Shown here: one piece after another, positions 12,679 to 18,535 of the stretch
Numbering within the stretch: the first letter of the stretch is position 1
How the letters are laid out: every line of letters starts with the position of its first letter
From: Streptantibioticus cattleyicolor NRRL 8057 = DSM 46488
Lineage (GTDB): Bacteria > Actinomycetota > Actinomycetes > Streptomycetales > Streptomycetaceae
NCBI RefSeq assembly: GCF_000240165.1
Contig: NC_017586.1
Coordinates: forward strand, 248,001 to 312,000
Reading direction: 5' to 3'
Length of the DNA stretch: 64,000 nt
Made by a program: the position numbers and the translations under genes
Notes under the pieces: generated by a model
Databases searched by the model: none
What the model saw: only the letters and a program-made list of their open reading frames with translations
Told to the model about the DNA's origin: nothing

Positions 12679-12702
12679 AGTGACCACGAGATGGAGAAGA
12701 CG

Positions 12703-12981
12703 ATGTCCTGCTGCACGCCCGACGGAAGCTGCCACTCCGCCCCGGCCACCGTCCCGGCCCCCGCCGGAGCGTGGACCGTGAGCTACGCGGTGTCCGGCAT
12801 GACCTGCGAGCACTGCCGTGCCGCGGTGACCCGGGAGGTCTCGGCGGTGCCGGGGGTCCGTGACGTGGCGGTGGACCTGGTGGCCGGTACGGTCACCGTC
12901 ACCGCCGCCGACGGGCCCGACGACGCGCGGGTGCGTGCCGCCGTCGAGGAAGCCGGTTACGAGCTGACCGGCCGTGTGTGA
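12703..12981 (+). CDS. copZ: Copper chaperone (CopZ-like, HMA domain)
   Basis: The 92-residue protein is one heavy-metal-associated domain after a short Cys/His-rich lead (MSCCTPDGSCH). The metal site is GMTCEHC (CxxC plus preceding Met), followed by PGVRDVAVDLVAGTVTV and a C-terminal helix ending in EEAGYEL, the standard ferredoxin-like order. It carries Cu(I) in the cytoplasm to the P-type ATPase. The ATG at 12703 has GGAGA upstream; an in-frame ATG four codons earlier has a poorer site. It is 42 nt upstream of copA and sits behind the CsoR-type operators. The extra N-terminal CC...C residues might bind additional metal. Confidence 0.9.
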   Translation: MSCCTPDGSCHSAPATVPAPAGAWTVSYAVSGMTCEHCRAAVTREVSAVPGVRDVAVDLVAGTVTVTAADGPDDARVRAAVEEAGYELTGRV

Positions 12982-13023
12982 GACCGACGGGTCCGACCCA
13001 GTCCACAGCCAAGGGAGCAGTCG

Positions 13024-15312
<2,289 letters not shown>

Positions 15313-15378: not shown

Positions 15379-17034
15379 TCACCGCCCCAGGGCGACCTCG
15401 ACGATCCTGACGATCACCAGGACCATCGCTATGAGCAGGTAGGTCCGCAGGGCACCCATGCCGATCTTGCGGGCGGTGGACATGACCGGCTTGGGCAGCG
15501 TCTCCAGCGGCGGCATCCGCCAGCCTTCCCGGCCGGTGCGGTCGACCGGACGGGACGCCAGCGTCCAGCCGCGCCGACGGCGCCGGGCCTCCGCGTAGCC
15601 GATGGCGACCACGCCGGCGATTCCGCAGGCGGCCATGATGTCGAGGATGGTGTTCGCGGAGATGTCGGGGAAGAGGACGGCGGCGGTGAGGATGACCGAC
15701 AAGGTGACCAGGACGCCGACGACCGCGGAGGTGAAGGCGTTGGTCTTCGGGCCGTTGGCCCACGGGCCCAGGACCGCTTTGTCGTTGCAGAGCAGGAGCA
15801 GGAAGACCGAGGCGGACGGCAGCAGGACGCCGGCGAGGGTCTGGACGCCTTCGGTGAGCAGGCCGAGCGGGGAGCCGGGGATCAGCACGATCGTGGCGGC
15901 GGCGGCCACGAGTGCGGCGTAGACGGTGTAGAAGCCCTTGGCGCCGCCGACACCGCGGTGCAAGGAGTGCTTCAGGCCCAGGACGTCTCCGATGGCGTAG
16001 GCGGTGGACAGGGAGACGGCGAAGGCGCCGATGATGGAGGCGTCCAGCAGTGCGATGGCGAAGAGGACTCCGGCCAGTTTGCCGGCGTGGGCGGCCAGTC
16101 CGTGGGCGATGCCGGCGGCGTCGGTGAAGTGGCCCTGGCCGCCGGTGCCGGCGAAGGTGGCGGCGGTGAAGCCCATCATGGCCGCGGCGCCGATCACCAC
16201 CACGGCGATGCCGATCCACAGGTCGGCCTTCTCGTACTTCATGAAGCGCGGTGTGATGCGCTTGTCGATGACGTAGGACTGCTGGAAGAACAGCTGCCAG
16301 GGTGCCACCGTGGTGCCCACGATGCCGATGATCAGCAGCATCACCGTGGCCAGCTGGCCGGAGCCGCCCGGCATGCCGGGGACCACGAAGTCGTGGACCA
16401 TCGTGGAGGTGGCCGGGTGGGCCATGAAGTAGATCGGCACCAGCAGCAGCGAGGCCGCGCACAGTGCGATGGCCACCCGCTCGAAACGCTGGAAGGAGCC
16501 GGTGAAGGCCGAGGCGATGATGATGGCGGCGGCCAGGACCACCGCGGCCACCTTGGGCAGCCCGAGGTATCCGGCGGCCAGGGTGATCCCGATGAACTCG
16601 GTCACCAGGGTCAGGGCGTTGAGCAGGAACAGGTCGATGACGCTGAAGGCGCCCCAGAACTTCCCGAAGCGTTCCAGGATCAGCCGGGCGTGGCCGACGC
16701 CGGTGACCGCGCCGAGGCGCAGGACCATCTCCTGGTTGACGTAGAGCACGGGGATCAGCAGCAGCAGTGTCCACAGCAGGTGGGTGCCGTAGTTCTGGCC
16801 GGCCTGGCCGTAGGTGGCGAACGCGCCGGCGTCGTTGTCGCCGACCATCACGATCAGTCCGGGGCCGACGATCGCCAGCAGCGTCTTGAGTTTCGCGGTC
16901 AGGCCGGTGCGCGGTGCGGTGTCGTCGAGGCGGATGGTGCCCAGTGCTCCGCGGATGTCGCCGACGTGCGCGTCGTCGAGTACCGCCGTGGCGCGGGGGG
17001 TTTCCACCGGGGTGGCCGTGGTGGTGTGGGTCAT
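15379..17034 (-). CDS. NRAMP-related metal transporter, probably Mg2+ (NRMT-like)
   Basis: The 551-residue protein has about 11 transmembrane helices and the NRAMP layout. Two metal-site motifs deviate. Helix 1 reads MVGDNDAGAFATYGQAG, not the DPGN of Mn/Fe NRAMPs. Helix 6 reads TTVAPWQLFFQQS, not MPHN; the metal-binding Met is missing. Such changes are known in the NRAMP-related Mg2+ transporter branch. The M-box upstream (Mg2+ riboswitch) supports magnesium. Start at ATG 17034, with GGGAGG 6 nt before it; an in-frame extension to 17151 exists. The basic C-terminal tail (about 470-551) has a further transmembrane stretch. Specificity is inferred. Confidence 0.85.
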   Translation of the reverse strand: MTHTTTATPVETPRATAVLDDAHVGDIRGALGTIRLDDTAPRTGLTAKLKTLLAIVGPGLIVMVGDNDAGAFATYGQAGQNYGTHLLWTLLLLIPVLYVNQEMVLRLGAVTGVGHARLILERFGKFWGAFSVIDLFLLNALTLVTEFIGITLAAGYLGLPKVAAVVLAAAIIIASAFTGSFQRFERVAIALCAASLLLVPIYFMAHPATSTMVHDFVVPGMPGGSGQLATVMLLIIGIVGTTVAPWQLFFQQSYVIDKRITPRFMKYEKADLWIGIAVVVIGAAAMMGFTAATFAGTGGQGHFTDAAGIAHGLAAHAGKLAGVLFAIALLDASIIGAFAVSLSTAYAIGDVLGLKHSLHRGVGGAKGFYTVYAALVAAAATIVLIPGSPLGLLTEGVQTLAGVLLPSASVFLLLLCNDKAVLGPWANGPKTNAFTSAVVGVLVTLSVILTAAVLFPDISANTILDIMAACGIAGVVAIGYAEARRRRRGWTLASRPVDRTGREGWRMPPLETLPKPVMSTARKIGMGALRTYLLIAMVLVIVRIVEVALGR

Positions 17035-17194
17035 GGCGTACCTCCCGTACCCCCGGGAGGGGGCGGACAGGGGGCACGCAGCAGCCATCCCCCCTGCGCG
17101 GAGGCGCAGGACGGCGGCCCGCGGCGGCACAAGGGCCGTGCGGGTGCGCACACAGGGGTCGCGGGGCCGGCGAGGGGCCGCGCAGGGAGGATGG

Positions 17195-17269
17195 TTACCG
17201 CGTGCCGGAAGAATGCGAGGACAAGCGGGGATGGGGCCGATGATGGCCCGGACTGCTACTGCAATCCAT
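17195..17269 (-). CDS. Possible 24-residue leader peptide
   Basis: Between the M-box and the transporter an ATG at 17269 follows GGAGG by 8 nt and opens a 24-codon frame that stops at 17195. The product is Ser/His/Pro-rich (starts MDCSSSPGHHRPHPR). The RBS is better than that of most ORFs of this size and the position, just after the riboswitch, fits a translated leader that could add Mg2+- or proline-sensing control. No conservation data were available, so it may be chance. Confidence 0.4.
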   Translation of the reverse strand: MDCSSSPGHHRPHPRLSSHSSGTR

Positions 17270-17374
17270 GTCTGTCGCCTCCTTCCGGCCGGGACGCGAC
17301 CGTGCGCGTCGTCATCGACTCGGCAAGGAGCGGCCGGTCCCGCATCAACGCGGCCGGCTCACCCCAACTCGTCA

Positions 17375-17535
17375 GAGCTTTGGCACTCCACGGCGTGATC
17401 CCCGTACCGGGGAAGCCACTTGGGGTCACCCCTTAGGCCGGGGAGACCTGTCCTGACCCTGGGCGTCTCTCGACGTCGTGGGGTCAGTGGCCTGTGTCCG
17501 TGCAGACGCCTCACCGAACGAGGTGCCTCTTCAAA
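17375..17535 (-). ncRNA. M-box (ykoK) Mg2+ riboswitch
   Basis: Read on the minus strand, the region has the hallmarks of an actinobacterial M-box: TTCGGTGAGGCGTCTGCACG, then GACGTCGAGAGACGCC followed by CAGGGTCAGG, then GGTGACCCC and a closing stem in which GGCAC (17527-17523) pairs with GTGCC (17386-17382). M-box RNAs fold with Mg2+ and shut off magnesium transporter genes. It lies upstream of the NRAMP-like transporter. A downstream hairpin (GCCGG...CCGGC at about 17330-17360) could be the expression platform. Assigned from remembered consensus; a covariance-model search would settle it. Confidence 0.75.
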
Positions 17536-17543
17536 CCTCCACG

Positions 17544-17574
17544 AGTGTAGCCCGACACTTGCGCGTCGACGCAA
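17544..17574 (-). promoter_or_regulatory. Candidate promoter of the M-box transcript
   Basis: On the minus strand TTGCGT (17574-17569) and TACACT (17549-17544) are spaced 19 nt, just upstream of the riboswitch 5' end. The spacing is slightly long, so this is tentative. Confidence 0.4.
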
Positions 17575-17701
17575 CTCCTTGGCGGACTCTTGACACATCG
17601 GGAACGAAGCCGTGGGGCGCACCGCCGATCGGCGGACGCCACCCCGGTCACCCGGCGCGCGCCCGGCGCCCGGATCCGGACCGCGGATACGTTGGCTCCC
17701 C

Positions 17702-18535
17702 ATGGAACCCCTCCGTGTGCCGGGGCCGGGGCGACGCGCCCGCCGGCTGCCCGTGCTCCTCGCGCTCCTGGCCCTGACGGTGACGCCGGCCCCGGTACGG
17801 GCGACGGCCGTCCCGGACGACTGTCGGCGGCCGGTGGCCCAACCGGCGGCGCCTACGGGGATGTCGGGCGCGGTCAACCGCAGGATCGCCACCTCCGAGC
17901 GCGTGGTGGCGCTGACGTTCAACGCGGCGTGGGACGACAGCGGGGTGCCCGAGGTGCTCGGGGTGCTGCGGCGGCACAAGGCACCGGCCACGTTCTTCAT
18001 GACCGGACGGTTCGCCGAACGCCACCCGGCGGCGGCACGGGCGATCGCCGCCGAGCACGGCGTAGCCAGCCATTCGTACCGTCACCCCGATTTCGCCGGG
18101 CTGACCCGTCAGGAGGCGTGCCGGGAGGTGCGGCGGGCGGACCGGGCGATCCGCCGGGCGACCGGTGCGGTGCCGCTGCCGTTCTTCCGCTTCCCGTACA
18201 GCTCCGTGCCGCCCGAACGGCTCGCGGACGTCAACGCGTTGGGCTTCGCGGACGTGGAGTACTCCGCCGACACCAACGGCTACCTCGGGGAGCGCGGCGG
18301 GATGACGGTCGCCAAGGCGGTCTCGCGGGCCCTCGACGCGCTCGGCCCGGGGGAGATCGTCCAGATGCACGTCGGGGCAGGCGACGGCGGCCCGGGGCTG
18401 GACGCGCCCGCGTTGCCGCTGATCATCGACACGGTACGGGCCCGTGGCTACCGCGTCGTCGACCTGCGGGCGCTGCTCAAACCGCCGCTTCCAGGGCGAG
18501 GACCGCGAACGTGGCCAGCCAGTGGTCGCCGGTGA
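17702..18535 (+). CDS. Secreted polysaccharide deacetylase-like protein (altered motif 1)
   Basis: The 277-residue protein has a signal peptide (about residues 14-38, ending VRATA) and a NodB-homology domain. Motif 1 reads ALTFNAAWDD: the first Asp, usually the catalytic base, is Asn. Motif 2 is SHSYRHPDF (the zinc His pair is present) and motif 3 is FFRFPYS. The C-terminal GEIVQMHVG matches the motif around the catalytic His. The altered motif may change or reduce activity; a similar TFN form exists in some actinobacterial members. Start at ATG 17702; an upstream frame to 17612 lacks support. Its last 59 nt overlap the convergent DUF2891 gene. Confidence 0.8.
   Translation: MEPLRVPGPGRRARRLPVLLALLALTVTPAPVRATAVPDDCRRPVAQPAAPTGMSGAVNRRIATSERVVALTFNAAWDDSGVPEVLGVLRRHKAPATFFMTGRFAERHPAAARAIAAEHGVASHSYRHPDFAGLTRQEACREVRRADRAIRRATGAVPLPFFRFPYSSVPPERLADVNALGFADVEYSADTNGYLGERGGMTVAKAVSRALDALGPGEIVQMHVGAGDGGPGLDAPALPLIIDTVRARGYRVVDLRALLKPPLPGRGPRTWPASGRR

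Follow-up and report, generated by a model that had tools for sequence, protein, structure and literature searches.

A conserved leader ORF in Streptomycetaceae, found with and without the M-box riboswitch upstream of Mg2+-type transporter genes

The DNA analysed here is a window of 64 kb (64 000 nucleotides) from Streptantibioticus cattleyicolor. The gene at 15379..17034, on the minus strand, encodes an NRAMP-related (NRMT-type) transporter of 551 amino acids (Pfam Nramp, E 2.6e-77), and lies tail to tail with genes at 12691-15312 on the plus strand, which we take to encode a CopZ-like protein and a copper-type P-ATPase. The closest solved relative of the transporter was EleNRMT (7qia; 165.7 bits, E 1.4e-47), the next chain scoring 70.3 bits (E 1.2e-18). 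EleNRMT is a Mg2+ transporter, and the available part of its description gives DxxG together with TxxA/T as the NRMT signature (PMC8806188). EleNRMT and the present transporter share the replacement of methionine by alanine (TxxA), but the TM1 motif, DxxG in the former, was DxxA in 44/44 orthologues, all of which carried the motifs GDNDAGAF and GTTVAPWQL. The original prediction had proposed two altered metal motifs; the change of MPHN to APWQ is in register and stands, whereas DND lies two residues away from the position of DPGN, which is occupied by DAGA. As judged by sequence comparison, the transporter is nearer to NRMT than to MntH, and the proposed preference for Mg2+ is consistent with both the closest solved relative and the lost methionine.

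The leader and most of the transporter gene are present twice in the genome, at 15379-17578 of the window and at about 492865-494811 of G000:C1 (L084). The two copies are identical over about 1.95 kb, comprising 49 nt of upstream sequence, the aptamer and 1724 nt downstream, which suggests a recent duplication or conversion.

An M-box (ykoK) Mg2+ riboswitch aptamer was located at 17356..17529 on the minus strand with the RF00380 covariance model. This was the sole Rfam match on either strand of the whole 64 kb and covered the complete model (1-169 of 169), with a score of 131.8 bits (E 2.2e-29) against a gathering score of 44; the predicted M-box was thus confirmed by covariance-model search. 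A -10-like promoter hexamer, TACACT, is suggested by its position 14 nt ahead of the aptamer (17544..17549, minus strand), and TA...T hexamers were seen by eye, uncounted, at a similar site in many of 82 upstream regions. A search for sigma-70-type promoters gave no match, and GCAAGT, considered as an upstream operator, was present in just 8 of the 82 regions and was dropped. The arrangement of an M-box ahead of an NRMT gene is not in itself new; in the available part of a study on Clostridium, it accounts for the Mg2+ control of NRMT genes (PMC4072509).

The aptamer is followed by a leader ORF (uORF) of 24 codons, MDCSSSPGHHRPHPRLSSHSSGTR, ending in TAA at 17195..17269 on the minus strand, which was identified by ORF scan and by its conserved frame. 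It is preceded by the Shine-Dalgarno sequence AAGGAGG (17278..17284, minus strand), and the ORF with a strong ribosome binding site that had been predicted was therefore found at 17269-17195. The description of this leader as rich in Pro and His was not upheld, as the composition is chiefly Ser (7 Ser, 4 His, 3 Pro). With regard to the suggested ribosome stalling at Pro and His, conserved His is limited to position 9 and conserved Pro to positions 7 and 12.

To follow the uORF across genomes, M-box leaders were gathered from 54/150 genomes of the family and 26/394 genomes at class level in which there was a match, and further leaders came from 29/60 genomes of the genus of one PE/PPE-bearing match (taken as Mycobacterium). 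The program used to pick uORFs, which scored candidates higher if they had Ser-Pro close to the N-terminus, assigned a uORF to 146 of 158 entries, leaving 8 with none and 4 skipped as duplicates. Start codons were ATG, GTG or TTG alone, the search having admitted no others. Inspection of unassigned leaders showed that L027 and L041 have a uORF, that L072b is frameshifted and L099 interrupted by masked bases, and that L125 and L131 have AUU where the uORF start is expected; the mycobacterial M-box leaders L112 and L117 had no recognisable uORF on inspection.

Conservation of the leader across species, which had been put forward as a check, was evident, an in-frame uORF being kept across Streptomycetaceae. 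The 42 NRAMP-type leaders of this family with a called uORF gave the consensus MDxSSPGHxRP...SGTR, and the distance from ATG to stop was a multiple of three in 42/42, with lengths from 69 to 123 nt; the flanking spacers exhibited no frame bias (16/14/12 of 42 and 13/13/12 of 38). Codon usage in the core was almost invariant, with AGT in 41, CCG in 41, CCC in 42, CGG before the stop in 42 and TAA in 41 of the 42 leaders. Codons ending in A or T made up 24.7% of 1342 uORF codons compared with 3.3% of 21 680 transporter codons, and AGT was used for 136/343 Ser codons in uORFs compared with 0.4% in transporter genes. Several synonymous positions, with a rare-codon core of AGT CCG, were nearly fixed, and the nucleotides are therefore constrained besides the residues. 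Part of this core, AGTCCGGGCC...GGCCC inside codons 6-12 (17234..17254, minus strand), was recognised by conservation and may form a short hairpin, with weak covariation. The C-termini of the uORFs vary with the class of the downstream gene.

A covariance model of the uORF element (R1), built from 70 sequences and spanning the Shine-Dalgarno sequence and start codon, was matched within 300 nt of 72/84 M-boxes in 150 genomes. The genes behind an M-box and uORF were NRAMP, MgtC and CorA genes, MgtE_N+NRAMP operons, a VOC gene and genes for small uncharacterised proteins. The third M-box of the present genome (L085, G000:C1 1547430-1545791, minus strand) precedes a VOC-family gene and then mgtC, and its uORF is MDYGSSPSHHRPLPRVSSRSSGTR.

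R1 had 98 matches in the 150 genomes, 26 of them with no M-box within 300 nt upstream. An Rfam scan of the stretches around all 26 (L157-L181) detected no M-box, the first 12 also being searched permissively. Four were set aside, namely L168 (at a contig end, with the 3' end of an aptamer visible), L158 (a remnant) and L180 and L181 (weak scores). The 22 convincing M-box-free elements all lie before Mg2+-type genes: 11 CorA, 7 MgtE_N+NRAMP operons, 2 NRAMP, 1 MgtC and 1 VOC. By eye, just the last ~25 nt of the aptamer are left in L159 and L160 and a 5'-side fragment in L166, which suggests that the aptamer was lost rather than gained. A scan of named genomes for a pattern of the element gave 31 stretches, among them Kitasatospora species, a single Streptacidiphilus, a metagenome bin and strains deposited under Streptomyces.

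Occurrence differed between gene families. At MgtE_N operon loci the element was present in 10/10 and the M-box in 5/10, and the 55 NRAMP orthologues were divided into 44 with both, 2 with the element only (one being the contig-end case), 2 with the M-box only and 7 with neither. The element was found at only 4/17 CorA orthologues, which counts against reading the uORF as a gate, as do two M-box NRAMP loci that have no R1 match and the mycobacterial leaders L112 and L117, with their missing uORF. Since the uORF is retained without an aptamer before CorA, MgtC, MgtE_N+NRAMP and NRAMP genes, we infer that it functions independently of the aptamer, and it appears to be a separate control element. 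This retention also lends indirect support to the second layer of control that the original prediction had envisaged. The conserved Streptomycetaceae uORF, with or without an aptamer, is new here; in literature searches that covered few subscription papers, no listed title described this uORF outside mycobacteria.

A translated uORF behind an M-box has a precedent in Mycobacterium, and the available part of that report describes the Mtb pe20 M-box as controlling uORF2 translationally, with Rho termination (PMC12810186). The pe20/rv1535 uORF2 (Rv1805A) leaders described there resemble the present one in having an M-box, a short uORF with a strong Shine-Dalgarno sequence, a long leader and no intrinsic terminator, and the uORFs share Ser-Pro near the N-terminus, an AGTCC core and M-box-free relatives; the downstream genes differ, being PE/PPE genes or Rv1535 and not classical transporters (PMC12810186). 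In Streptomycetaceae and mycobacteria alike, most uORFs begin 66 to 114 nt downstream of the aptamer (extremes 43 and 156).

AGTCC occurred within the first 42 nt of 75/80 family uORFs and 51/53 mycobacterial uORFs, as well as in 4/4 and 3/3 from two other families and 0/6 from two further groups. It occurred in 0/123 downstream gene starts, and the window background was 127/5515; codon-shuffle controls reach 44%, so the test leans on the gene-start and window controls. Over 71 M-box loci from outside the family R1 gave 59 weak matches, of which 49 fell on the uORF, a target making up 1.3% of the space, although the Shine-Dalgarno sequence and start codon inside R1 may supply part of the mycobacterial signal. 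Strong R1 matches in 394 class-level genomes were confined to Streptomycetaceae, and the wider claim therefore rests on the weak matches and AGTCC. Homology between the Streptomycetaceae and mycobacterial peptide profiles was rejected at the protein level (hhalign probability 1.6%). A relationship to the mycobacterial uORF2 at the nucleotide level is likely on this sequence evidence; the uORF2 peptide is called mycobacteria-specific in the available text (PMC12810186), whereas a nucleotide-level relative is found here in other families.

The leader was also assessed for an expression platform. A search for intrinsic terminators from 16800-17800 found 0, against a shuffle mean of 0.2; the terminator platform of the B. 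subtilis or Clostridium type was thus not found at this locus, and it is no defining trait of the M-box aptamer itself. The pyrimidine-rich sequence CTCCTTGCCG (17321..17330, minus strand) is, by its shared position and by analogy with mycobacteria, a candidate anti-Shine-Dalgarno; such a stretch lies at a constant site in most leaders, with CTCCTT in 29/43. Complementarity between the two sites was 5.79 bp compared with 5.89 bp in dinucleotide shuffles, with 0/42 leaders in excess, and sequestration of the ribosome site by this pairing, having shown no gain over shuffles, is not supported. Hairpins within the uORF are a possibility that was weakly supported, with just 5 compensatory cells (equalled by 8/500 shuffles) and, against synonymous recoding, a mean z of -0.87 and p<0.05 in 2/52 sequences. 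No consensus structure was obtained with RNAalifold on 75 leaders. The hairpin predicted before the transporter corresponds to a long stem found by folding (17085..17194, minus strand), which begins immediately after the uORF stop and pairs 17194-17178 with 17101-17085 over 17 bp with one G-U pair.

We consider the chances about even that the aptamer determines whether the uORF is translated and that the uORF, as a common gate, controls transcription into the transporter gene. The mechanism is transferred from the Mtb pe20 M-box, as set out in the available part of that report (PMC12810186). With Mg2+ bound, the M-box would prevent translation of the leader ORF, upon which the leader would be terminated, probably by Rho as no intrinsic terminator is present; at low Mg2+ the aptamer would open, the uORF would be translated and RNA polymerase would reach the NRMT-type gene. 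The uORF would be the shared gate, working also where there is no aptamer. The coupling of aptamer to uORF, the part played by Rho, the direction of regulation and the Mg2+ response are all suggested by this analogy. The Mtb-type model is favoured by the lack of an intrinsic terminator, by the excess of C over G after the uORF and by the pyrimidine stretch at a constant place, and is disfavoured by the weak covariation and by Shine-Dalgarno complementarity no greater than in shuffles.

The proposed gate differs from related systems. In Clostridium acetobutylicum RF00380 also lies directly before an NRMT-type gene, and an MgtE_N partner gene is found there and in relatives of the present locus; the platform is an intrinsic terminator and the available part of the report mentions no uORF, whereas here there is a uORF and no terminator (PMC4072509). 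Enterobacterial mgtL and corL are uORFs that relay the Mg2+ state via translation (PMC11552253). They too are short ORFs in the leaders of Mg2+ transporter genes (corL precedes corA) and are linked to Rho, but as described in the accessible text they have no M-box, there is one uORF per gene and translation represses (PMC11552253). The present uORF is of one type before several gene families, and the opposite sign would be expected.

The next reading in order of likelihood is that the uORF is a plain shield against Rho, for which any short translated ORF would suffice, the sequence being kept for RNA structure around the start and stop. Conservation of synonymous positions fits this, as does a base content between uORF and gene (C 41.7%, G 31.5%) compatible with a Rho site, and the stem directly after the stop fits also, though it beat shuffles (p<=0.05) in only 10/42 leaders. 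The predicted structures are weakly supported, the frame survives length changes in multiples of three nucleotides and SPGH recurs ahead of unrelated genes, so that we regard a plain shield as rather unlikely. A small protein acting in trans, for instance on Mg2+ transporters as proposed for Rv1805A, seems less probable again. The uORF does occur ahead of genes from several transporter families, whether or not an M-box is present, and the available text on mycobacteria leans towards a role for the peptide and describes a paralogue that lacks an M-box (PMC12810186), but the product is short and hydrophilic, its C-termini differ by class of downstream gene, synonymous codons are conserved as much as residues, and a Mg2+-type gene was always near in cis in the 22 convincing cases. 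That an ordinary M-box switch acts alone, the uORF being an unimportant relic, would suffice for the Clostridium NRMT genes in the available account (PMC4072509) but is very unlikely here, as the uORF outlasts the aptamer in 22 loci and AGTCC separates family uORFs from downstream gene starts.

Beyond the common gate, it is conceivable but doubtful that Mg2+, or the translation stress caused by its shortage, is sensed by ribosomes on the SPGH uORF itself. The uORF would then be a portable cis-element shared by unrelated Mg2+ uptake genes in Streptomycetaceae and kin at the nucleotide level to mycobacterial M-box uORFs, and the M-box would be a further, dispensable layer. If control by one conserved uORF extends to CorA, MgtC, MgtE_N and NRAMP-type genes, whether or not a riboswitch accompanies it, the uORF would mark a high-GC actinobacterial Mg2+ regulon, and would suggest a function for Rv1805A, the role of which was left open by its discoverers. 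The contributions of aptamer and uORF are directly separable because matched natural leaders with and without the aptamer exist, and the rare-codon core lends itself to a simple codon-level test.

M-box-uORF leaders were also found before small proteins in L034, L036, L104, L118 and relatives, and these proteins had no match in Pfam or NCBIfam scans. They could be new Mg2+-stress proteins.
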